The notes under the pieces were generated by a model. That model did no database searches, was not told the origin of the DNA, and saw nothing but the letters and a program-made list of their open reading frames with translations. This document shows, piece by piece, positions 1 to 12,960 of a stretch of DNA of 64,000 nucleotides. Origin of the DNA: Gemmatimonadetes bacterium SCN 70-22 (lineage in GTDB: Bacteria; Gemmatimonadota; Gemmatimonadetes; Gemmatimonadales; Gemmatimonadaceae); contig MEDZ01000002.1 of the NCBI GenBank assembly GCA_001724275.1, forward strand, positions 1 to 64,000, read 5' to 3'. A program made the translations under genes and the position numbers. Positions within the stretch are counted from its first letter, which is position 1; each line of letters starts with the position of its first letter.

Positions 1-1
1 G

Positions 2-22
2 GGCGCGTGGTCTGCACGCGCC
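2..22. terminator. GC hairpin at left edge of window
   Basis: The 8-base arms at 2-9 and 15-22 are perfectly complementary around a 5-base loop. There is no T-tract after it, so it may be a terminator of the gene to the left or only a structured element. Confidence 0.3.
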
Positions 23-89
23 GGGGGGTATGGGCTGCGTTCGCCCAGTCGCGAAGGGGGCCGCCAGAGGCGGGCCCGTCAATGGCAGG

Positions 90-122
90 TGCGGGAATTT
101 GCCTGTTCAGGCCTGCGGGAAT
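90..122. promoter_or_regulatory. Direct repeat flanking a small palindrome upstream of hsdM
   Basis: TGCGGGAAT occurs at 90-98 and again at 114-122. Between the copies lies GCCTG-TT-CAGGC (101-112). The arrangement resembles an operator, as expected for a controlled restriction operon, but no regulator gene is visible, so the role is a guess. Confidence 0.2.
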
Positions 123-316
123 GTGGGTGTACGTCTACACGCATCGTTGCTGGTGTGCGGCATACGCCTGGCTCACCGCGCGGAACCCCGCCACCCCCAT
201 GGGTTTCCCTGTCAGCCCCGACCTCTATCTTCATGACAACGCCCGAGCCCCTCGGACAGGGCCAACGGCGGCACGGGGGTCATACCGCGCATTCCGACGC
301 AGGAGACCAAGAGCAG

Positions 317-3106
317 ATGGCACGTGTGACAGCGACCAAACCGAAGAAACAGGCTGCGGTCCCCGCGGCCGACAACGACAAGGCAGCGCCTGCCCCGCTC
401 CGGGTCTCCCGCATAGTCAGCCCGAACGGGCGCGGCGCGGCACGCGACAAGATCACCCTCGCCCAGCTCGAAGGCTTCCTCTTCAAGGCCGCCGACATCC
501 TGCGCGGCAAGATGGACGCGTCGGAATTCAAAGAATTCATCTTCGGCCTCCTGTTCCTCAAGCGCCTCTCGGATGAATTCGACCGCAAGCGCGAAACGCT
601 GCGCCGGACGGACTTCGCCCATATCAAGGACCCCGACCTTCTGAACGAACTCCTGGAGGACAAGACCTCCTACGGAGAGACCTTCTTCACTCCCGTCAGG
701 GCGCGCTGGCACGAGCCTTGGGTCGATGCCGATGGCGAGCTCGTTCCTGCCCTGAAGGACCTGAAGCAAGACATCGGCAACATGCTCAACAAGGCGCTCG
801 CCGCCGTCGAGGATGAAAACGACGCCCTCACGGGCGTCCTGAAGAACAACATCGATTTCAACGCCGTTAAGGGCAAAACCAAGATTCCCGACCAGAAGTG
901 GAAGGACCTGCTCGACCACTTCAACCAGCCGCAATTCGTGCTGGTCAACGACAACTTCGAATTCCCCGACCTGCTCGGCGCCGCCTACGAGTATCTGATC
1001 AAGTACTTCGCGGATAGCGCCGGGAAGAAGGGCGGGGAATTCTACACACCCGCCGAGGTCGTGCGGCTTCTCGTGCAGCTCGTCAAGCCCCGCGCCGGGC
1101 AGGAGATCTACGACCCCACCGTCGGCTCCGGCGGCTTCCTGATCCAGAGCCACCAGTATGTCGAGGAACAGGGAGACAACGCAAACGACCTCGCGCTCTA
1201 CGGCCAGGACTCGAACGGCACCGTCTGGTCGATCTGCATCATGAACATGATCCTCCACAACATCACGCGCTTCACTATCGAGAACGCCGACACGCTGGAG
1301 GACCCGCAGATTCTGGACAAAGGCGCGATACGCAAGTTCGACCGCGTCCTTGCGAATCCGCCTTTCTCGCAGAACTACAGCCGGGCGACGCTGAAATTCC
1401 CCTCGCGCTTCCGCGAATGGTGCCCGGAGACGGGCAAGAAGGCTGATCTGATGTTCGTCCAACATATGCTGGCCAGCCTCAAGCCCGACGGCCACATGGC
1501 CACGATCATGCCGCACGGCGTCCTGTTCCGCGGCGGCAAGGAAAAGCTCATCCGCGAAATCTTCATCCAGGACGACGTGATCGAGGCGATCATCAGCCTT
1601 CCCCAGGGTCTTTTCTACAACACCGGGATTCCTGCCTGCGTCCTCGTGATGAACAAGAACAAGCCCGACTCGCTGCGCGGGAAGATCCTGTTCATCAACG
1701 CCGACCGCGAATACGCCGAAGGCAAGAAGCAGAAGAAACTACGCCCCGAGGATATCGAGAAAATCGACTTCGTGTTCACGCACAAGCGCGAGATTCCGAA
1801 GTACAGCCGTCTCGTCGACGTGAAGGAAATCATCGGCGAGCACGACTACAACCTCAACATCCGCCGCTACGTCGACAACACGCCGGACCCAGAGCCGGAG
1901 GACGTGCAGGCGCACCTCATCGGCGGCGTGCCGGAGGTGGAGGTGAAGGCGCACGAACCAGACTTCGCACGGTTCGGCACTTCATCAACAACCCTCTTCG
2001 AGCCCGAACGTCCGGGCTATCTTCGCTTTCGCCCGCTGGTCGCGGCGAAAGCCGACATCCGCCGCCTCCTCGAATCCGATACGGGCGTCAGGGAAACAGT
2101 CGCACGTCACCACACGGCGCTCGAAGAATGGTGGGCGGTCGCGCGCGACGATTTCGCCAGGCTCTCCGATGGCCGGAAACTGCCCGACGTCCGTCAGGAA
2201 CTCCTCACCGGGCTTAAAGCGAAGCTCGTCCCGCTTCAGGTTCTCGACGAATTCAAGAGCGCGGGCGTGTTCGTGAACTGGTGGCAGCAGATCCGCTACG
2301 ACCTCAAGACCATCGTCTCCACAGGCTGGCACCACGCGCTGATCCCGGACAGCTACCTCATCGCGGCCTTCTTCCGGGCCGAGGCCGACGCGATCGCTGA
2401 GACGGAAGCGCGCATCGCCGATGCCCAGAGCGGACTGGACGAAGCCGTTGAAGCGGCGCAGGAAGTCGCCGCTTACGAGCCCGCAGAGGATGAGACGGTC
2501 ACCGCTGCCGTGATCAAGAAGGCGCTCAAGGAGTTGATCGACGACTTCAAAGGCACCGCGGGCGCATCCGCGGCCAGGGAAAGAAAGGCGCTCCAGGACC
2601 AGCAGGACGCCATCACCGCCATCGAGACGCGCATCAGGGAGGCGAAGGCGAAACTAAAGGACCTGGTCGCCGAACTGGAACTCAAGCTAGAGCTCAAGCG
2701 CCACGGCGCCGATGACGTCATCGGCGAAACGCACGTACTGATCGAGCAGGCAGAGAAGCAGCTCGCCACACTCGATCCGGCCCGCAAGGGCGAGAACCGC
2801 AAGGTCACGGCACTGAAGAAGGACATTAAATCGCTGCGCATGCGTCTGACAGATGCTGACGCCTCCCTTGCTGCCATCGGCGGCAGGCTGACGGAGCCTG
2901 AGGCGAAAACGCTCATCCTCAGGAAGCTGTACGACATTGCGCATTCGCAATTGGGCCGCTACGTCGCCGCGGAGAAGCGCGTCGTTATCGCGGCGGTCGA
3001 CCGCCTGCGAGACAAGTACGCGGTGTCAAGTCGCGCACTGGAGCATGCTCGCGACGAGACGTTGAAGACGCTTGACGGATTCGTGAGCGGATTGGGGTAC
3101 TGCTGA
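317..3106 (+). CDS. hsdM: Type I restriction-modification DNA methyltransferase subunit M
   Basis: This is the N6-adenine methyltransferase subunit of a type I R-M complex, which would modify host DNA at the site chosen by HsdS. The SAM-binding motif DPTVGSGGF is at about residues 266-274 and the catalytic motif NPPF at 347-350. The N-terminal helical HsdM_N-type region ([18 protein letters not shown]) is also clear. The ATG at 317 was chosen because AGGAG lies 11 bases upstream and the family-like sequence begins soon after; the frame is open back to 89 but that part is unlike HsdM. At 929 residues it is much longer than the usual 500 or so. The extra C-terminal part, from about residue 520, ends in a long charged region (about 690-900) that looks like coiled coil. 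Its stop overlaps the hsdS start (TGATG). Confidence 0.95.
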
Positions 3107-4356
3107 TGAATTCCGCTCGTCGATCCGAGACCCTTGCCACATTCGTAAGGTTGGATAAGGGCAAGCCCCCGCTGATACAGCCATACGATGGCCCAGACGC
3201 CGAATTGTATCTCACTCCAGAGTATCTTCGCGGACGATCGTCGGCTGAGTTTGTCAAGCCATCGCCAAACGCCGTCCATGTTATGGATGGCGAAACGATC
3301 GTCCTTTGGGACGGATCAAACGCGGGTGAGATCTTCAAGGCAAAGCACGGAATTCTCGCATCAACAATGACGCGCGTCCGACCTGGCACTGATTACGACG
3401 CAGAATACTTCTATTACGCGCTGAAGGGGTGGGAAGAATATCTCAAGGGACAAACCTCTGGGTCTGGTATTCCGCACGTTGATAAGGAAGTGCTGGAAAA
3501 GCTCACCATACTTGCCTGTGACAAGCGCGAGCAATCTAGCATCGCTGCAATCCTCTCGACGATTGACTCGGCGATCGAGCGGACAGAGGCGCTTATCGCC
3601 AAGCAACAGCGCATCAAAGCGGGCTTGGCGGGTGACCTCCTAACCCATGGCGTCGATGAGCAAGGACGGGTGCGCTCCAGGACGACGCAAGAGTTTCGGC
3701 AGTCGCCGATGGGCATGATTCCGGTTAGTTGGCGCTGCGAACCGCTGGCCGTATTCGTCCCGTCGGCGGAGTATGGGATTTCCTCGTCGCTTGGCGACAG
3801 CGGTCAGCCCGTACTGCGCATGAATAACCTGTCGAATGGGGAGGCCGATTTGACTGATCTCAAGTTCACGGCCGCGCCCGTGCCCGATCGCCTGTGGCTT
3901 CGGGCAGGTGATGTCTTGTTCAATCGCACGAATAGCTGGGAACACGTCGGACGGACAGGAATCTGGCGTGGCCAGCATGAGCGGACAACGTTTGCATCGT
4001 ATCTCGTCCGACTCAATCCCGATAGAAGTATCCTGTCACCCGAACTGCTCAACATCTGGCTGAATTGGCCACGAACGCAAATCGCCATGCGGCGGTTCGC
4101 TACTCCTGGCGTTCAGCAGGTGAACATCAACCCTACAAATCTGAGAGCGCTTTCGGCCGCATTCCCAAACAGCCTTGAAGAGCAGGAAGTCATCGTGGAG
4201 CGCGTTCGCGCCCTTGATCATGTAAGCGCTACAAACCGAGATACCTTAGCAAAGCTTCGGGCTCTAAAGCGCGGGCTCCAACAAGATCTCCTCACCGGCC
4301 GCAGACGCGTCACGCCGCTGCTTGAAGCAGACAGAGCCCAAGAGCAGGTGGCCTGA
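3106..4356 (+). CDS. hsdS: Type I restriction-modification specificity subunit S
   Basis: This subunit recognises the bipartite DNA target and holds the HsdM and HsdR subunits together. The 416-residue protein has the expected layout: target-recognition domain 1 (about 1-139), a central conserved helix region (140-187, starting KREQSSIAAILSTID), target-recognition domain 2 (about 190-350) and a distal conserved helix (356-402, ending LKRGLQQDLLTG). It starts in a TGATG overlap with hsdM and ends in another with hsdR, so the three subunits are probably translationally coupled. The sequence is noticeably less GC-rich than its neighbours (about 55% in sampled lines), as is usual for rapidly exchanged specificity genes. 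The target sequence cannot be read from the protein. Confidence 0.95.
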   Translation: MNSARRSETLATFVRLDKGKPPLIQPYDGPDAELYLTPEYLRGRSSAEFVKPSPNAVHVMDGETIVLWDGSNAGEIFKAKHGILASTMTRVRPGTDYDAEYFYYALKGWEEYLKGQTSGSGIPHVDKEVLEKLTILACDKREQSSIAAILSTIDSAIERTEALIAKQQRIKAGLAGDLLTHGVDEQGRVRSRTTQEFRQSPMGMIPVSWRCEPLAVFVPSAEYGISSSLGDSGQPVLRMNNLSNGEADLTDLKFTAAPVPDRLWLRAGDVLFNRTNSWEHVGRTGIWRGQHERTTFASYLVRLNPDRSILSPELLNIWLNWPRTQIAMRRFATPGVQQVNINPTNLRALSAAFPNSLEEQEVIVERVRALDHVSATNRDTLAKLRALKRGLQQDLLTGRRRVTPLLEADRAQEQVA

Positions 4357-7300
4357 TGGCGGTAAGCGCACAAACCGCCAGGGAGATCAAGCTCGACGAA
4401 CGCAACCACGTCGAGATACCGTTCCTCGAGCAGCTCCGCGCATTGGGCTGGACCGTCATCGACTGCGACAGCAAGCAGCAGCCCTCCGACACGTTCCGCG
4501 AGAGCTTCACGGAGGTCGTGATGCTCCCGGTCTTGCGGGAGCAGATCAAGGTCATCAACCCGTGGATCGAGGACGACCAGGTCGAGGAGGTGATCAAGCA
4601 TCTCACGGCCAACTTCCCGGGCACCGGCCTGATCCAGAACAACCGGCATGTCCTCCAGCTCCTTCTGGAGAATAGCAGCGTCGCCGAGAACCGCAGGAGC
4701 GGCGAGAAGAGCCCCACCGTCCGCTTCATCGACTTCAAGAACCGCGACAACAACCGCTTCATCGCTGTATGCCAGTTCAAGGTGCGCATCCGCGGCACCG
4801 AGCATCACATCTATCCGGACATCGTCCTCTTCGTAAACGGCCTGCCGGTCGTGGTCGTCGAGTGCAAATCGCCCAAGGTCAAGGAGCCGATTCCCGAGGC
4901 GATCGACCAGCTCCTGCGCTATAGCGAGCAGCGCGGCGACAAGGGCGAAGGCAGCCCGGAGCTGTTCTACTACAACCAGTTCGTCGTAACAACGTGCCGG
5001 CAGGAAGCGAAGTTCGGCACGATCACGACCCATAACGAGAAGCACCTCTTCCGCTGGGCTGATCCCTACCCGCGCACGCTCAACGAGCTCGAACACGGCG
5101 CCAGCAGCCCGAACGACCAGCAGCGCCTTGTCGCCGGCATGCTCGACCGGGACAACCTGCTCGACATCATCCGCACCTTCACGCTCTTCTCGACCGACGA
5201 TAAGGGCCAGCTCATCAAGATCGTCGGCCGCTACCAGCAGTTCCGCGCGGTGAAGATCGCCGTCAAGCGCCTTCAGGAGGGTAAGACGCCGCGCGATCGC
5301 AGCGGCATCGTCTGGCACACCCAGGGGTCGGGGAAGTCTCTCACGATGATGTTCATGGTCCGGGAGATGTACCGCCACCCGACGCTGGCGAGCTGGAAGG
5401 TCGTCTTCGTCACGGACCGTACGCAGCTCGAAGAGCAGCTCACCGAGACGAGCCAGAGCATCGGCTTCACGGTCAAGCTCGCGGACAGCATCAAGCGGCT
5501 AAAGGAGCTTCTCGCAACCGACTCGTCCGATCTCGTGATGGCGATGATCCACAAGTTCCGGGATGAGGAGCTTCGCGAGATTTTCCCGGAGTTGAACAGA
5601 AGCCCGAACATCCTCGTCATGACGGATGAGGCGCACCGCTCGCAATACTCCGTTCTCGGCGCAAATCTCGACAAGGCGATTCCGAACGCCTCACGGATCG
5701 GCTACACCGGCACGCCGATCGACAAGACCGAAAAGGTCTTCGGCGACTACATCGACAAGTACACGATGCGCCAGTCTATCGAGGATGGCGTGACGCGGGA
5801 GATCGTGTACGAAGGGCGGACCCACAACGCCGAAGTGCCGGACCGGGCCGGCATGGACACGGCCTTCGCGGACGTGTTCAGCGACTACAACATCCAGGAG
5901 CGACTCGAGATCCTGGGCTACGGTTCGAAGAACGCCTACCTCGAAGCCCAAGCCACGATCGACGCCAAAGCCCGGGATATGGTGGCGCATTACGTCGCCC
6001 ATGTGTTCCCGAACGGGTTCAAGGCGCAGATCGTGGCGACATCGCGTGAAGCCGCCGCCAGCTACAAGGGCGCCGTCGACCGCGCGCTGACCGATGCGAT
6101 CGCCGAGCTCGAAGGGGCCAACCCGCAGCGGATCGACCTCGATCGGCTGCGCAGGCTCAGGACCGACGTCGTGATCTCGGGCGGGCATAACGACCCGCTG
6201 CACCTCAAGGCCTTCACCGACTCCGGCAAGCACAAGACCACGATCAAGAGCTTCAAGCTCCCCTTCGGCGGCAAGGACGAGGGCGTCACCGGCGACATCG
6301 GCATCGTCATCGTCAACAACATGCTTCTGACCGGGTTCGACGCCCCCGTCGAACAGGTCATGTATCTGGACAAGGTCATCACTGACCACGGCCTTCTCCA
6401 GGCCATCGCGCGCGTCAACCGCGTCGCGGGCAGCGCCAAGGAGAAGGGCTACGTCGTCGACTATGTAGGCGTCGGCCATCATCTGAAGAAGGCGCTCGAT
6501 AACTACGACGAGCGCGAGCAGGCGGAAATCCTCGGCAGCCTGAGCTTCCCGGAGGATGAGCTGCGCGCCCTGCGCGCGGCCGAGGCCGCGCTGATGGAAT
6601 TCCTGAAAGCGCGTGGCCTGACCGATCTCACCGACCACGATGCGTTTTTCGACCTCTTCTACGACGAGGACCTGCGCTTTGAGTTCATGAAGCTGTTCAG
6701 GGAATTCACCAAAGCGCTCGATGTCGTCTTCCCGGCCAAGGAAGCGCTCGCCTTCATGGGCAGCTTTCAGGCGCTTGCCGAGGTCAACGCGCTGGCCGCG
6801 AAGCATCTGCGCGACGAGCGCCTGAGCATGAACGGAATCCCGCCCAAGCTGCGCGCGATCACGGACGCCTTTCTCGTCTCGCGCGGTGTGGACGTCAAGG
6901 TCCCGCCGATCTCAATCCTCGACGAAAGCTTTCAGGAAGAAGTGCACGAGCGCGGCCGCCCCAAGACGAAGGCCGCCGAAATCGAGCATGCTGTTCGGCA
7001 CCACATCGACATCGAGCTGGATGACGACCCACACCTTCAAGCCTCGTTCGCCGAGGAGCTCAACTTCATTCTTCAAGAGTTTAGAGACAACTGGGACCGA
7101 ATTCTCCAGGAACTTGAGCGGCTTCGCCGGGAGATCGTTGCGGCCAGTCGAGAGCCTACATACGGTCTCCACCGTAAGAAGCAGATGCCGATATTCCGTG
7201 TTCTTCGCTCCGAAACGTTTGGGGACGATGAGCTCAGCGACGACGCGATTTCGACTCTTGTCAACCTCACTCAGCAAATCTTCGGCGACATAGAGCGTGA

Positions 7301-7487
7301 GCTCCGGCTCATCGGCTTTTGGGAAAGCGCGCCGGCCCGACAGAAGCTCAAGGCGGATCTACAACGGATTCTGCTTCAGTCGGAGTTCTCGACCGTACCT
7401 GATCTTGTGGCCAACCGCACCAGGATCATCAGCCGACTTATGGAGATCGGCGAGAGGAACCATGATACGATACTGTACGCACCGTGA
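4356..7487 (+). CDS. hsdR: Type I restriction enzyme endonuclease/translocase subunit R
   Basis: This is the ATP-driven translocase and nuclease that cuts unmodified DNA. An N-terminal PD-(D/E)xK nuclease domain is visible as PDIVLF...ECKSP, with Asp155, Glu169 and Lys171. A superfamily-2 motor follows: Walker A QGSGKS at 323-328, DEAH at 424-427, then TGTPI, a later GFDAPVEQVMYLDK segment and an IARVNR motif. The 1043-residue length is normal for the family and all key residues are present, so the enzyme looks intact. The ATG overlaps the hsdS stop, and the TGA overlaps the GTG start of the metallopeptidase gene by four bases. Confidence 0.96.
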   Translation: MAVSAQTAREIKLDERNHVEIPFLEQLRALGWTVIDCDSKQQPSDTFRESFTEVVMLPVLREQIKVINPWIEDDQVEEVIKHLTANFPGTGLIQNNRHVLQLLLENSSVAENRRSGEKSPTVRFIDFKNRDNNRFIAVCQFKVRIRGTEHHIYPDIVLFVNGLPVVVVECKSPKVKEPIPEAIDQLLRYSEQRGDKGEGSPELFYYNQFVVTTCRQEAKFGTITTHNEKHLFRWADPYPRTLNELEHGASSPNDQQRLVAGMLDRDNLLDIIRTFTLFSTDDKGQLIKIVGRYQQFRAVKIAVKRLQEGKTPRDRSGIVWHTQGSGKSLTMMFMVREMYRHPTLASWKVVFVTDRTQLEEQLTETSQSIGFTVKLADSIKRLKELLATDSSDLVMAMIHKFRDEELREIFPELNRSPNILVMTDEAHRSQYSVLGANLDKAIPNASRIGYTGTPIDKTEKVFGDYIDKYTMRQSIEDGVTREIVYEGRTHNAEVPDRAGMDTAFADVFSDYNIQERLEILGYGSKNAYLEAQATIDAKARDMVAHYVAHVFPNGFKAQIVATSREAAASYKGAVDRALTDAIAELEGANPQRIDLDRLRRLRTDVVISGGHNDPLHLKAFTDSGKHKTTIKSFKLPFGGKDEGVTGDIGIVIVNNMLLTGFDAPVEQVMYLDKVITDHGLLQAIARVNRVAGSAKEKGYVVDYVGVGHHLKKALDNYDEREQAEILGSLSFPEDELRALRAAEAALMEFLKARGLTDLTDHDAFFDLFYDEDLRFEFMKLFREFTKALDVVFPAKEALAFMGSFQALAEVNALAAKHLRDERLSMNGIPPKLRAITDAFLVSRGVDVKVPPISILDESFQEEVHERGRPKTKAAEIEHAVRHHIDIELDDDPHLQASFAEELNFILQEFRDNWDRILQELERLRREIVAASREPTYGLHRKKQMPIFRVLRSETFGDDELSDDAISTLVNLTQQIFGDIERELRLIGFWESAPARQKLKADLQRILLQSEFSTVPDLVANRTRIISRLMEIGERNHDTILYAP

Positions 7488-8170
7488 CGGAAGTTGATTA
7501 CACTGTCACGCGCTCAGCGAGGCGCCGGACGTTGACCATAACGGTCGAGCGCGACCGGACGGTCGTCGTGCGCGCGCCGGAGGGGATGGCCGATGAGGAG
7601 GTCCGGCGCCACGTCGACGAAAGACGACAGTGGATTCTGGAGAAGCTGCGCGATCCGCAGAAATACGTCGACCGCCGCCATCCGCCTGGGAAGGAGGTCG
7701 TCAACGGCGAATCCGCCCTGTACATGGGGCGCGATTACCAGATCGAGCTGACCGAAACCGGCTCCGGGAAGGTCGAATTCGACGAGCGCTTTCTTGTCCC
7801 CCGGGCGCACCAGCGCAGACGGCGGGAGGTCCTGCGGGAATGGTACAAGGAGGAAGCGCGCCAGCGGATCATACCCAGGGTCGAACAGCATGCCCGCGAG
7901 CTGGGCGTGACGTTCAGCAGCGCGCGCATCGTCGACAACCGGTACCGCTGGGGCTCCTGCACCGTCGGCGACAGCGTCACCTTCAACTGGCGGCTCATCA
8001 AGGCCCCGATGTTCGTGATCGATTACGTCATCATTCACGAACTCGCCCACCTGATCGAAGCCAATCACGCGCCGGCCTTCTGGAACATCGTCCGCGCACG
8101 CACGCCAACGATGGATAAGGCAAGAGCCTGGCTCAAGGAACACGGGCAGGTATTGGAAGAGGAGATCTAG
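7484..8170 (+). CDS. YgjP/SprT-like zinc metallopeptidase linked to hsdR
   Basis: The 228-residue protein belongs to the YgjP (COG1451, DUF45) group of M48-like zinc-dependent hydrolases. The zinc site HELAH is at residues 185-189, after the family signature RYRWGSC and before a further conserved His in NHAPAFW. The GTG start at 7484 gives a GTGA overlap with the hsdR stop, so it is a true operon member. Genes of this family often sit next to hsdR. Their role there is unknown; proteolytic control or turnover of HsdR is a reasonable guess. The amber stop is followed at once, in the same frame, by the GTG start of the next gene. Confidence 0.9.
   Translation: MTEVDYTVTRSARRRTLTITVERDRTVVVRAPEGMADEEVRRHVDERRQWILEKLRDPQKYVDRRHPPGKEVVNGESALYMGRDYQIELTETGSGKVEFDERFLVPRAHQRRRREVLREWYKEEARQRIIPRVEQHARELGVTFSSARIVDNRYRWGSCTVGDSVTFNWRLIKAPMFVIDYVIIHELAHLIEANHAPAFWNIVRARTPTMDKARAWLKEHGQVLEEEI
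8159..8164 (+). promoter_or_regulatory. Shine-Dalgarno fixing the GTG start at 8171
   Basis: GAGGAG ends six bases before the GTG at 8171. It supports translation starting directly after the TAG of the metallopeptidase gene. That start leaves the first phosphoesterase metal motif near the N-terminus (residues 11-13), where the family normally has it. Confidence 0.7.
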
Positions 8171-9958
8171 GTGCGCCCGATCTCCTGGCTTCATATCTCC
8201 GACATCCACATGCGCCCGCGCGATGCCTGGCCGCAGCACGTCGTGACGACGGCCATGTACGAGGATATCCGCGCCAAACGCCCGGAGCGCCCCGCAGATT
8301 TCGCTCTCGTCACGGGAGACCTCGCGTTTGGTGGCAAGGCCGAGGAGTATGAGCTTGTCAGAGGCTTTCTCGACGAGCTGTCCGCAGCATCGGGCGTCCC
8401 GGCCGACCGGATCTTCTGCATACCGGGGAATCACGACATCGACCGGGACCGTCAGAGGTTCTGCTTTCAGGGCGCCCGTGCCGCTCTTCAGGACTCGGCC
8501 AGCACCGATGCCTTTCTGGGCTCTCCCGATGCCGATGATTTCCGAACGCTGATGGCGCGTCAGGAACATTATCGAAGTTTTCAGAAGTCCTACTTTGCCA
8601 ACCAGGAGAGAATCCCCACGCCCGACGGCCTTGGATACGTCGCGCGCTTGATTGTCGATGGCGTTCGCATCGCCATCGTCGGACTTGACACCGCATGGCT
8701 CGCTAACGGCGGCATCGATGATCACATGAAGTTGCTGCTTGGAGAGCGCCAGCTCCTGAACGCGCTCTCCCTGGCGGTCGAGAGCGCTGATCCGCCCCAC
8801 ATCGTGGTGGCCATGGGCCATCACCCTCTTCATCTGCTACAGGACTTCGACCGCCGCGCCGCCCTGAGGCGCATTGAAGGCAAGTGCCATTTCTACCACT
8901 GCGGCCACCTTCATGAACCGGAGGAACGCGCTGGCGGGCAGACTCCGGGCGGCTGCGTGACCGTCGCCACTGGCGCATCGTTTGAGACGCGGCAGTCGCA
9001 CAATACCTATTCATTTGTGCGCCTCGATCTTCGTCAAGCCGAGCGCACGATTGCGACGCATCGCTATAGTCCGGGCGACGGGGCGTTCAATTCAGTTGCC
9101 ACCCAGCGATACCGGATCGAAGTCCAGCCAATCGCGCAGTGCGACCTCCGCGAGCTGGCGGAGGCGCTCGCCGCTTATGGCATCTCATCGCACCTGTACT
9201 ACCTCGCAGCTCTCCTGCTCGACATGAAAGCCGAAGTCCCGGTGCCAACCGGGGCGAGCTATACGATGGCATCGCTTGCGGCCATGGAGGGAATCGGTGA
9301 CACGGCCCTGAAGTCAGAAACGCTGGGTTTTCTGGCGTTTCGCAACGTGCTGCGCGTGCTGTATGGCCGTGAGGACCTCGCCGCCATTCTCGCGGCCCAC
9401 GGCGACGCGGTAAGTACCTATGCCGCAAGACTGTCGAATCTCTGCGCAACCGACGCGAGCTTGCAGGCGCGGCTCGGCGGGCAGGAGGCAGACGCCCGGT
9501 CACTCGCCGCCGTCGGGCCGGCCGAACCGTTCTCCCACACCAAAGACCTCTGGCAGGACCTCTGCGACTCCCATGACTGGGAGATGCTGCGGGGACAGGT
9601 CGAACCGTACATAGCATCCGATGACGAGTCGCTCGCGCTCTGCGCCACGCGCATGCTCGCACTTGCGCTTGCGAACTCCGATGAAAGAGCCGACAAGGAA
9701 CGCGCCATCATGCTCTACCGCTCGCTGATCGAGAGCGGGTCGCCGGAGCCGTCCGACGCGCTCAACCTCACCGAGCTTCTTATGGACATCGGCCAGCCGG
9801 ACGAGGCCAAGGTCGTTGTTCTTGGCGCGATTCATCGGTGTCCGGTAAGCGCCGCTGACCGTCTGAACAGCGCGGGTCAGCTCATCGTAGCGGCGACCGG
9901 CGACAAGGAGTTTCGCAACCAACTGAGCGCAGCAATAGCGGAGAGAGGTTCACGGTGA
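8171..9958 (+). CDS. Calcineurin-like metallophosphoesterase with helical repeat C-terminus
   Basis: The first 270 or so residues form a dinuclear-metal phosphoesterase: Asp11-x-His13 (ISDIH), GD at 49-50, GNHD at 86-89, GHHP at 216-219 and GHLH at 245-248. All five metal motifs are present, so it should be active on a phosphodiester such as DNA, RNA, a cyclic nucleotide or a cofactor. The remaining 320 residues are alpha-helical and have TPR-like pairs near the end (about 490-590). The domain order suggests an enzyme with a protein-interaction arm. It is read from a GTG right after the metallopeptidase stop and overlaps the GHKL ATPase start by four bases, so the two probably act together. 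The family includes nucleases (Mre11/SbcD type) and phosphatases, and the substrate cannot be told from sequence. Confidence 0.88.
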   Translation: MRPISWLHISDIHMRPRDAWPQHVVTTAMYEDIRAKRPERPADFALVTGDLAFGGKAEEYELVRGFLDELSAASGVPADRIFCIPGNHDIDRDRQRFCFQGARAALQDSASTDAFLGSPDADDFRTLMARQEHYRSFQKSYFANQERIPTPDGLGYVARLIVDGVRIAIVGLDTAWLANGGIDDHMKLLLGERQLLNALSLAVESADPPHIVVAMGHHPLHLLQDFDRRAALRRIEGKCHFYHCGHLHEPEERAGGQTPGGCVTVATGASFETRQSHNTYSFVRLDLRQAERTIATHRYSPGDGAFNSVATQRYRIEVQPIAQCDLRELAEALAAYGISSHLYYLAALLLDMKAEVPVPTGASYTMASLAAMEGIGDTALKSETLGFLAFRNVLRVLYGREDLAAILAAHGDAVSTYAARLSNLCATDASLQARLGGQEADARSLAAVGPAEPFSHTKDLWQDLCDSHDWEMLRGQVEPYIASDDESLALCATRMLALALANSDERADKERAIMLYRSLIESGSPEPSDALNLTELLMDIGQPDEAKVVVLGAIHRCPVSAADRLNSAGQLIVAATGDKEFRNQLSAAIAERGSR

Positions 9959-12216
9959 GTGAAGAGCGCAAGACCTTTGTGCCGGGGATAGATTTTCCGA
10001 GCATCCTCACGCTGCTCTCAAAGCAGATCTATGAGACGCCTCTCGCCTTCATCCGCGAGAATGTCCAAAACGCCGTGGACGCCGTGCGCATTCAGGCGTT
10101 CCGCGAAGGCGTAGATCCCGCCGACGCGCGATACAGAATCGATATCACGGTCGAAGGCGATACAATCAAGGTGCGCGACAACGGCACCGGCATGTCCGCC
10201 GAAGACCTGAAACGGTTCTTCTGGAGCATGGGTGCCAGCGGAAAGCGCACGGCGGAAGCAATCGCAGCAGGTTGCGTCGGCATGTTCGGCATCGGCGGCT
10301 TTGCGAATTTCGGAGTATGCCACACGCTGGAAGTGATTTCACAGATCGAAGGCTCGTCCGAAGGGACGCTGACGCGGCTATCACAGGCGGATATCGAAGC
10401 ATCTCAAGGTCGAATCCCCCCTGTTACCCTCGAAACATCCGATCTCGCAGGGCCGCGCGGGACGCTTGTCGTCGGGCATCTTCGAAGCGCGCCGAATCTC
10501 GACGACCTGCGGCGCTACCTCCGCGATTTCGTCAAATTCGTTCCATCCGCGGTGTTCTTCGGCACGGAGAAGCTCTCTCAGAACTCCTTCTCCGACATCG
10601 AGGACCGCAGCAACCTTACGCAGATCGGCGGACCCGAGGCCCAGGACTGGCAGGGCAAGAATCTCGTCGTTACAGGACGCCTGTATGAGGACCGTGGACA
10701 TACCCTCGTCGCGGCGATTGATGGACTCACGGTCTCGGGCGAGGCTATCAACATGACCGGCCACATCCGCTTCGAGAATGGCGCGTTTGATGTTTTCAAG
10801 CGCGGTTTCAAGCTCTGTGCGACCACAATAGCTACCAACATCGGCGTGTCGGGGCGTCTGGATTGCGACAAGTTCATCCCCACGGCCGGCCGGGATTCCC
10901 TGGACGCCGAGACGACAAGCCTCCTGAACCGCATTACCCAGACGCTTGAGGCGGTTGCCGTTGACGAGATCCTGAGCGACCCGGAGCGGATCGGCCAGTA
11001 CACCAGACTCTTCCGCTACATCAACCAGCACGGCCTTGTGAGCAAGCTCGGGAACGTCAAGGTCCGCCTTGCCGATGGCGCCGAGAGTACCCTTGGCGCC
11101 ATCCGGCGCCGTGCGGAACAAGGGGGCGTAAGCGTGTTCTTCGGCGTCGCGCAGAAGCAGGCTCTCAACCAGATCATGCAGGCGAGAGGGCATCTTGTGG
11201 TCCTGCTCTCAGCCGATCGCCATCGTCAGCAGGCCGAACGCCAGTACCTTGAGCAATTCTGCCGCGCCAAGCCGTTCGACGGCATGATCGACTGCCGGGA
11301 GACTTACACGGACCTGACCCGCTTCGAGAAGGTTTTCTTGAGCGAACTCGAACTCAGCATCTCGAAGGCCTACGAGGTGAAGAACTTCCGGCTCGTACCA
11401 GGAAAGCTCACCGAGGACATCCCGGTCTTCGTCAAGGAGTACAGCGGCAACCAGTCCCCCGACATTTTCGTTGACGTGCGGCATGATGAAATCGCCAAGC
11501 TGGAAGCTTTGGGATACACGCAAGTTCTCTACTCCCTGATTGCCACCTTCTGCCGCGAATATCTCGGACCATCGCTCAAGAAATGGAGCCCGCGTTTCTT
11601 TGGTGACGGCGCGCTCAATCTTGAACTTCTCGCGAAGCGGCGCTCAGAGCTGTGGGTGCTGCTGAAGGACGATATCGGTATCGTGCGCAAGCCGGTCCAG
11701 CGCCAGGTCGTCAGGCGCTCGGATGTACAGGTCGTCAATGTTGGAGGCGGCCAGGCGCAAGCCGAACCACCGGCTGGCAAACCGATGCCACGACTCCTGC
11801 GCATCGTCGATGACGAATCGACAACGAACCTTGCGGGCTTCTACATCAGATTGCCTGACAGCGCCTTTCATGCCTACGGTGATCTGCTCCCGGAGTGCGA
11901 GAGCCGCGGCGTGGTCTGGGCTGGCAACAAGATCCTCTACGTCGCCTCGGACACGGTGAGCGCTGCGTTTCAGTACGAGATCCGGCTTGACGAAGTGGTT
12001 GCCACCGATGTCAACGGCGTTACTCGCGGCGAAGGCGCAGAAGCCCTGGATCGGCCGCTACAGCAGATGTATAACGGCCTGTACTTCCCGATTCCGGCCA
12101 CGCTCGAACGCTTCCTCGTTCCGCGCGGGGACGAAGAAATACGGCTGGAGTTGCATTGCGACTGGATTGACATGCGAACCGCGAAGCACTGGCAGCCCAG
12201 GGACTCGGCAGCGTAG
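9955..12216 (+). CDS. Large GHKL (Hsp90/MORC-like) ATPase, probable defence component
   Basis: The N-terminal 120 residues carry the full GHKL ATP-binding signature: an N-box with Glu35, Asn39 and Asp42 (ENVQNAVDA), DNGTGM at 75-80, and the ATP lid GMFGIGGFANFG at 109-120. These match Hsp90, MutL and MORC more closely than histidine kinases, and no kinase phospho-acceptor domain is present. The rest of the 753 residues is not recognised. It includes an expected transducer-like region (about 200-330) and a C-terminal beta-rich part. No nuclease motif was seen. The GTG start lies in a GTGA overlap with the phosphoesterase gene, and it is the last operon gene. GHKL ATPases of the MutL/MORC type are known from R-M neighbourhoods, where they are thought to sense or remodel DNA. 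Here the phosphoesterase may supply the catalytic output. Confidence 0.85.
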   Translation: MSEERKTFVPGIDFPSILTLLSKQIYETPLAFIRENVQNAVDAVRIQAFREGVDPADARYRIDITVEGDTIKVRDNGTGMSAEDLKRFFWSMGASGKRTAEAIAAGCVGMFGIGGFANFGVCHTLEVISQIEGSSEGTLTRLSQADIEASQGRIPPVTLETSDLAGPRGTLVVGHLRSAPNLDDLRRYLRDFVKFVPSAVFFGTEKLSQNSFSDIEDRSNLTQIGGPEAQDWQGKNLVVTGRLYEDRGHTLVAAIDGLTVSGEAINMTGHIRFENGAFDVFKRGFKLCATTIATNIGVSGRLDCDKFIPTAGRDSLDAETTSLLNRITQTLEAVAVDEILSDPERIGQYTRLFRYINQHGLVSKLGNVKVRLADGAESTLGAIRRRAEQGGVSVFFGVAQKQALNQIMQARGHLVVLLSADRHRQQAERQYLEQFCRAKPFDGMIDCRETYTDLTRFEKVFLSELELSISKAYEVKNFRLVPGKLTEDIPVFVKEYSGNQSPDIFVDVRHDEIAKLEALGYTQVLYSLIATFCREYLGPSLKKWSPRFFGDGALNLELLAKRRSELWVLLKDDIGIVRKPVQRQVVRRSDVQVVNVGGGQAQAEPPAGKPMPRLLRIVDDESTTNLAGFYIRLPDSAFHAYGDLLPECESRGVVWAGNKILYVASDTVSAAFQYEIRLDEVVATDVNGVTRGEGAEALDRPLQQMYNGLYFPIPATLERFLVPRGDEEIRLELHCDWIDMRTAKHWQPRDSAA

Positions 12217-12231
12217 CAGGCTGACGGCAGG

Positions 12232-12723
12232 TCAAGAACCATCACGCTCCCAGACCAGCCGGCTGATCGCCTTGAACTTGGTCACGCTGAGCGCGCCGCG
12301 TTCGTTGCGAGCTTTCGACCCGCGCGCGGAAAGTGCCGCGAGCACGGCCTCGCGGTCCGCTTCGTAGATCGCAAACGCGTCGAACTCCTCATTGAGCAAC
12401 ACCATCAGCACGGCGTCGAATTCCTTCGCCGTATCGATCCGGCCCAGGCGCTGGCCCGGCTTGCAGCCCGGCAGCATGCAGCGGCCCTTGATCTGAAAAC
12501 GCCTGCCGCCCTTGCCGACGCCATCGTAACCCGCGTGACGCGCGGGTGTGAGCGCAACACCCAGCAGCCGCGCCGCCTCATTCCTCGCTGCGGCGAGTGG
12601 GGCACAGACACAGCCTGCCCCTTCGCAGGGCCGCGCGACGGCGCCCAAACCGCATGTCGAGTTCGAGGTCGCCCTGCCGTCCACGCGCGTCGCCGACTCT
12701 CCGGCAACTCCGCGCCCCTCCAA
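12232..12723 (-). CDS. Small PD-(D/E)xK-like protein (DUF6998-like), possibly N-terminally degraded
   Basis: The C-terminal 110 residues look like a real domain: NEAARLLGV, then ARHAGYDGVG, then RRFQIKGR, then FDAVLMVLLNEEFDAFAIYEA. The Asp followed by Gln-x-Lys resembles the nuclease core of small restriction endonuclease-like proteins; the overall pattern recalls DUF6998, which I recognise only by eye. The first 45 or so residues are low-complexity and unlike the domain. The given start is a TTG, and a GTG at 12684 is an alternative. The 5' end may be lost or frameshifted, so it could be a pseudogene. It converges on the GHKL gene, 15 bases away, and marks the edge of the island. Confidence 0.5.
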   Translation of the reverse strand: MEGRGVAGESATRVDGRATSNSTCGLGAVARPCEGAGCVCAPLAAARNEAARLLGVALTPARHAGYDGVGKGGRRFQIKGRCMLPGCKPGQRLGRIDTAKEFDAVLMVLLNEEFDAFAIYEADREAVLAALSARGSKARNERGALSVTKFKAISRLVWERDGS

Positions 12724-12960
12724 CCAGTTCGCGGTCCCCTTCGCTGATCAGTACACGGCCACGCGCCTCCGACCTGTGCGCAAGCGCAGAGTCCCGCGGC
12801 GGCTACCCCGCCCGGCCCCCGGCCGATCACAGTCGCTGGCACCGAAGGCTCCGGGCACCGTGAACCCTGAGGCTAGCTGCCCGCCGCACCACCCTGCATT
12901 GTTTCCCAACCCACGCCCCCATCCTCGCCGCCGCAAGCGCCCACCACGTCAACGCCCCCC

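Follow-up and report, generated by a model that had tools for sequence, protein, structure and literature searches.

A 64,000-nucleotide stretch at the start of contig MEDZ01000002.1 from Gemmatimonadetes bacterium SCN 70-22 (hereafter the window) carries a metallophosphoesterase (MPE) gene and a GHKL ATPase gene that probably form a mobile two-gene module acting against phages (or against mobile elements). We propose that the module inserts into or beside other defence systems, and that an Hsp90-like clamp within it controls a nucleotide-cleaving effector. The first gene encodes a calcineurin-like phosphoesterase with a two-metal site and a tail of helical repeats that evolves fast. We take it as the likely effector, whose predicted action is to stop phage growth by cleaving a nucleotide, a cyclic nucleotide or a nucleic acid. 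The product of the second gene, a divergent Hsp90, would most likely be an ATP-driven dimer clamp that holds the phosphoesterase inactive until infection and then activates it. The proposal is built on direct observations: the two genes share an operon and keep their motifs intact, the second is homologous to Hsp90, they are obligately paired and their divergence is mirrored, the effector has been replaced in one locus, and the surroundings are those of defence genes and mobile elements.

The MPE gene lies directly upstream of the ATPase gene, on the same strand, in 17 of the 18 loci of the GHKL clade (window included). Each of the other readable clade members has a partner gene directly upstream (17/17), which encodes an MPE in 16 loci and a protein of the nucleoside-phosphorylase family in one. 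The MPE-GHKL loci (the window, L002-L009, L011, L012, L015, L016-L018, L074 and L075) span 21-73% GHKL identity. Eight close relatives, with 62-73% ATPase identity, come from Alphaproteobacteria, Gammaproteobacteria and Nitrospirota, and all have the MPE directly upstream; the MPE gene of L006 is broken by a frameshift. Distant versions (21-26%) were found on a conjugative plasmid of P. aeruginosa, on a Rhizobium plasmid, in a genome of the same class, on three IMG/VR contigs and in a Rhizobiales genome. At L075 both genes have decayed. In Rhizobium sp. 007 (L012:8511-9983) the MPE reading frame is unannotated, and the record has two short hypothetical genes there. A first-pass annotation of the window had left it to be seen whether the two genes keep company elsewhere; they do, and mostly without hsdMSR alongside.

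Across the 14 loci in which spacing was measured, the two genes lie -38 to 0 bp apart, frequently with the 4-bp overlap. Additionally, the two proteins have diverged in parallel: their distance matrices correlate with r = 0.97 (Mantel p = 1e-4), and the correlation is also significant inside each subclade (r = 0.86 and 0.82). At one locus within the clade (L043:7197-11094), a PNP_UDP_1 gene (1.6e-20) takes the MPE position upstream of the Hsp90-like gene, which we read as the replacement of one effector by another; swaps of this sort have been described in GTPase-centred systems (PMC7159879). As a control, five plasmid htpG genes were inspected and none had an MPE upstream (0/5). Because there are only 12 PF00149 matches in the 4.7 Mb host genome, a random upstream neighbour would rarely be an MPE. 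The pair is rare, patchy and absent from almost all genomes sampled, with strong matches in 2/395, 1/288, 3/210, 2/394, 2/347 and 3/346 genomes; these samples overlap and most are centred on known carrier genomes, the 3/210 includes the nucleoside-phosphorylase locus, and the 3/346 includes one decayed copy and one locus outside the proven clade. At the level of sequence, the pair is supported as a conserved unit.

Profile and model comparisons identify the GHKL protein as a divergent Hsp90 that has the N and middle domains, the catalytic Arg among them, and belongs to a clade apart from HtpG. Alignment to bacterial HtpG with hhalign covered residues 5-419 (probability 99.5, E = 2.6e-23) and placed R313, within an invariant PTAGR motif, on the catalytic Arg of the HtpG middle domain (LNVSR). 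R313 is invariant in 14/14 loci scored, as are the GHKL motif residues E35, N39, D75-x-G77-x-G79 and G109/G112/G114. Only the Hsp90 family appeared among the 60 matches listed in a profile search of the PDB (best 3.8e-19), and Foldseek with an AlphaFold2 model placed full-length TRAP1, Hsp90 and HtpG first (E ~2e-21, ~690 aligned columns). The first-pass annotation had brought up GHKL ATPases of the MORC/MutL type as ones known from R-M neighbourhoods. That identity is ruled out for this protein, since Hsp90 scores far higher in profiles, hhalign and Foldseek; at the family level the Hsp90 family scored 4.7e-21 versus 0.001 for MutL. The protein also falls outside the HtpG clade, reaching 49 bits on the HtpG model against a cut-off of 371. 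In our tree the pair-associated GHKL proteins formed a clade of 16 (support 100/100), separate from HtpG, from PRK14083-type proteins and from an Hsp90-like protein of a cyanobacterium that weakly matches TIR. Phage RIIA was considered as close kin and rejected, the likeness being limited to structure and the N-domain. A PF00183 search of the whole host genome detected no HtpG, and the Hsp90-like protein of the pair may be the only one in this genome.

Two further Hsp90-like proteins were encountered. An 877 aa protein of a Pseudanabaena plasmid (L013:7926-10559) has Hsp90 domains (PF00183, 9e-17) and a weak C-terminal match to the CAP12/Pycsar TIR, and a TIR gene adjoins it. In a Nitrospirota sample (L076:8251-11149), an Hsp90-like ATPase gene overlaps an upstream gene for a TPR protein of 256 residues that has a further N-terminal part; L076 was left out of the GHKL tree.

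The MPE consists of a catalytic domain (~1-320) and a helical, weakly TPR-like repeat tail (~325-595). All eight motif residues checked (D11, H13, D50, N87, H88, H217, H246 and H248) are invariant in the 14/14 loci scored. The domain matches PADLOC PDC-S60 over residues 7-319 (1.7e-35, 120 bits) and NCBIfam DS8_antiphage (2.6e-31, 108 bits, far below the cut-off of 790 bits), and both score it above the generic Metallophos model (49 bits); the match to DS9_1 (7.4e-14) is likewise far below cut-off. The structure model (pLDDT 84) matched Rv0805, GpdQ and Lmo2642, which are class III nucleotide phosphodiesterases. In both subclades the repeat tail evolves fastest: its mean identity is 0.41 and 0.21, compared with 0.54 and 0.37 in the catalytic domain and a range of 0.34-0.71 in the GHKL segments. 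The whole MPE profile weakly matches designed TPR proteins. An attractive analogy to Hsp90 and the TPR phosphatase PP5 was set aside, as the TPR evidence is weak.

Full-length PDC-S60 matches on plasmids are MPE-STAND/NACHT proteins. Among plasmid relatives of the MPE domain, two are fused to STAND/NACHT (L022, L023), two stand alongside GASH GTPase systems (L020, L021) and one occurs with an FGE-sulfatase (SUMF1) domain (L019). A Nostoc plasmid protein (L024:1403-5734), adjoining a NACHT gene, combines WD40, a Ras-like GTPase, the same MPE type and a CHAT-like domain. Because its relatives occur in DS-8 and DS-9 and are fused or linked to STAND/NACHT, GASH, SUMF1 and WD40/Ras-like GTPase/CHAT, the MPE domain is a conflict effector that is reused in many systems.

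Type I R-M genes lie beside the pair in two loci, the window and L074. Both share the order hsdM-hsdS-(DUF3800)-hsdR-YgjP-MPE-GHKL, and the components are very distant (HsdR 27%, YgjP 31% and GHKL ~22% identical). The pair had been described as embedded in a type I R-M operon; this stands for these two loci, but it is one of several contexts. hsdMSR is absent beside the pair in most loci, and defence genes adjoin it in most loci with readable flanks. In L007 (180-8198) the pair directly follows BREX genes (the end of pglX, then pglZ and brxL), and PIN-type toxin-antitoxin-like genes separate pglX from pglZ. Other neighbours include BREX pglX (L008), CRISPR I-G cas3/cas5-6/cas7 (L004), SIR2 PDC-S65 with a type II R-M set (L006), NsnA-like and GajB-like genes (L005), and LmuB (Lamassu-like)/ABC-three-component genes (L011). 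DNA methylase genes occur near L044 and in L075. A flank scan recognised no defence genes at L009 or L012. Conjugative plasmids are among the carriers, and so are phage contigs L016 and L017, which have portal, head protease, terminase, MuA- and MuB-type genes; the L018 contig has integrase and ParB-like genes. R-M is a frequent host of the pair, not a requirement.

In the window, the two reading frames are open and full length with a 4-bp overlap at 9955-9958, and they close a six-gene operon, hsdM-hsdS-hsdR-ygjP-MPE-GHKL, in which all junctions overlap or abut. The intact, overlapping pair and its coupling to the R-M genes and a metallopeptidase are therefore as first annotated. The type I R-M set (hsdM, hsdS, hsdR) is complete and forms the host operon, distinct from the pair; the real start codon of hsdM, the first gene, may be internal to its listed reading frame. 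Because its GC content is below the mean of the remaining window, the operon looks like a block acquired as a single unit, and in this genome the pair probably arrived together with the type I R-M operon. The left edge of the block coincides with the contig end, and its full extent is out of view. A pattern scan of 7300-12800 found no terminator-like site. Downstream, at 12232-12723 on the minus strand, is a convergent DUF6998-family gene (3.7e-7), which also matches PADLOC 'mREase_II' (1e-32); a gene weakly similar to it (33% over 60 residues) lies ~4.2 kb 3' of the pair in L074 (14930-15430).

Table. Features of the operon in the window.
Feature	Coordinates	Strand	Basis
hsdM, type I R-M methyltransferase subunit	89-3106	+	PF02384 3.8e-103, HsdM_N; PADLOC MTase_I 3.8e-276
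hsdS, type I specificity subunit	3106-4356	+	PF01420 2.4e-13; PADLOC Specificity_I
hsdR, type I restriction subunit	4356-7487	+	HSDR_N, SWI2_SNF2; TIGR00348 1.3e-144
YgjP-like metallopeptidase, HELAH motif	7484-8170	+	PF01863 2.1e-58; also follows hsdR in L074
Metallophosphoesterase (MPE), 595 aa, GTG start, candidate effector	8171-9958	+	PF00149 1.2e-12
Hsp90-like GHKL ATPase, 753 aa, GTG start, candidate sensor/switch	9955-12216	+	HtpG profile alignment, Foldseek
Low-GC block over entire operon	1-12216	.	1-kb tiles 57-64% GC vs mean 70% in remaining window

Several points weigh against a clamp-controlled defence module. We infer, rather than observe, the defence function, a physical complex, activation by infection and the substrate. 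Enrichment near defence genes is illustrated by examples, as the neighbours scanned were chosen by eye without a random-locus background. The ATPase model is moderate (pLDDT 71, TM ~0.5), with domain orientation and the C-terminal third poorly modelled; as regards an Hsp90-type C-terminal dimerisation domain, Foldseek aligns ~690 columns to full-length Hsp90, but the model is weak in that region, and this third has no sequence match to Hsp90. Additionally, the helical tails of long MPEs, short MPEs and the nucleoside-phosphorylase partner have no detectable homology. A common C-terminal docking domain of the long MPE, short MPE, nucleoside-phosphorylase and L076 partners was considered and rejected, as hhalign did no better than shuffled controls.

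The speed at which the MPE tail evolves in both subclades bears on where specificity resides, and the MPE, not the ATPase, may carry it. The variable helical repeats would then sense phage and the Hsp90-like partner would only fold or prime the effector, similar to eukaryotic Hsp90, which keeps NLRP3 and the R proteins of plants stable (review: PMC12169576). We consider this unlikely, though with an appreciable chance of being right: relaxed constraint alone may explain fast evolution, and in L043 the Hsp90-like protein is kept while the effector becomes a nucleoside phosphorylase, which is how a shared sensor or switch would behave. The repeated gene order in the window and L074, despite very distant components, would suit an accessory role within type I R-M, such as controlling HsdR with the YgjP peptidase, rather than autonomous defence. 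Such a role is improbable given that no hsdR lies beside the pair in most loci (plasmids L011 and L012, phages L016-L018, and L003-L009).

A toxin-antitoxin-like addiction pair, with a toxic MPE neutralised by the Hsp90-like protein, would be consistent with the effector gene coming first, the partner gene overlapping it, and carriage on plasmids and phages. However, a ~750-residue ATPase with full catalytic motifs would be an unusual antitoxin, and we regard this reading as quite unlikely; it also overlaps with the clamp-controlled module if infection frees the effector. Bacterial PRK14083-type Hsp90-like proteins adjoin TPR proteins without any sign of defence (L045, L046, L048), which raises a chaperone-phosphatase pair for stress or housekeeping. 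We give this little credence, as the pair is rare, patchy, mobile, near defence genes and missing from almost all sampled genomes. Finally, the MPE might serve mobile elements by destroying the second messengers of immunity, given its carriage by phages and conjugative plasmids and its structural matches to class III cyclic-nucleotide phosphodiesterases. Counter-defence of this kind is highly improbable: the pair is also found on chromosomes and inside R-M and BREX loci, an unexpected place for something that inhibits host immunity, and its DS-8 relatives defend.

The clamp-controlled module makes the pair a credible candidate for an undescribed two-gene defence system of a kind already known, that is, a switch ATPase with a predicted nucleotide-targeting effector. 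Most of the immune switches known from bacteria belong to the STAND/NACHT, ABC, GTPase or cyclase proteins, and the Hsp90-type switch has a real chance of being a new class. A broader idea, which we hold only tentatively and lean against, is that Hsp90-class clamps serve as dedicated immune switches: in a family of mobile defence modules, one divergent Hsp90 would work with interchangeable nucleotide-targeting effectors (phosphoesterase, the L043 nucleoside-phosphorylase type, and possibly the small N-terminal domain/TPR protein of L076 and the TIR of L013), often 3' of type I R-M or beside BREX as a second immune layer. For the pair itself, the link to modification-based defence makes a second-layer role, when restriction fails, possible. 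If true, a chaperone-class ATPase that serves a single effector would be a new sensor type, would give bacterial Hsp90 an immune role parallel to Hsp90 control of plant and animal NLRs, and would suggest that phage is detected by way of how proteins fold or assemble. The locus also offers a test of how small defence modules join R-M and BREX operons, since one operon plan is seen with two very distant pairs.

The pair was first flagged as a candidate for a new system, and this holds in part. No PADLOC, NCBIfam or Pfam model covers it, and no paper naming it was found among open-access papers; the MPE domain, in contrast, belongs to a family validated in DS-8 and DS-9 (PMC13092281) and listed as a predicted effector (PMC7159879). 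In DS-8 the MPE is joined to NACHT in one protein, and in DS-9 it is paired with a HAD protein; metal-site mutants no longer defend in either system (PMC13092281). The N-terminal MPE domain of DS-8 (PDC-S60, NF053861; DefensePredictor) can be aligned over ~310 residues, but DS-8 has its NACHT/STAND NTPase in one protein, whereas the window MPE lacks an NTPase domain and has a separate Hsp90-like partner. Similar to the pair, DS-9 has two genes and a related metallophosphatase (7.4e-14); its second gene encodes a HAD phosphatase, not an Hsp90-like GHKL ATPase. In GTPase-centred conflict systems (GAP1-N1/GASH), calcineurin-like phosphoesterases are the commonest effector, with PNPase and TIR as alternatives (Kaur 2020, PMC7159879). 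The swap between MPE and nucleoside phosphorylase fits this list, although the window operon has no GTPase, GAP1 or GASH gene. HtpG/Hsp90 and PRK14083-type proteins share homologous N and middle domains with the pair ATPase, catalytic Arg included, but the latter forms a separate clade with its own C-terminal third and an obligate effector partner. The paraMORC/MutL-like ATPases of R-M operons (PMC2292703) have the GHKL fold and the R-M neighbourhood in common with it, whereas the window ATPase is closest to Hsp90, not MutL/MORC. In the phage-defence protein VcSduA, control of an effector enzyme is likewise proposed for a GHKL ATPase, which is fused to a Shedu nuclease (PMC12137116), there as a single protein with a PD-(D/E)xK nuclease effector. 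Lastly, chaperone-based phage sensing has a precedent in DnaJ with bNACHT25 (PMC12169576).

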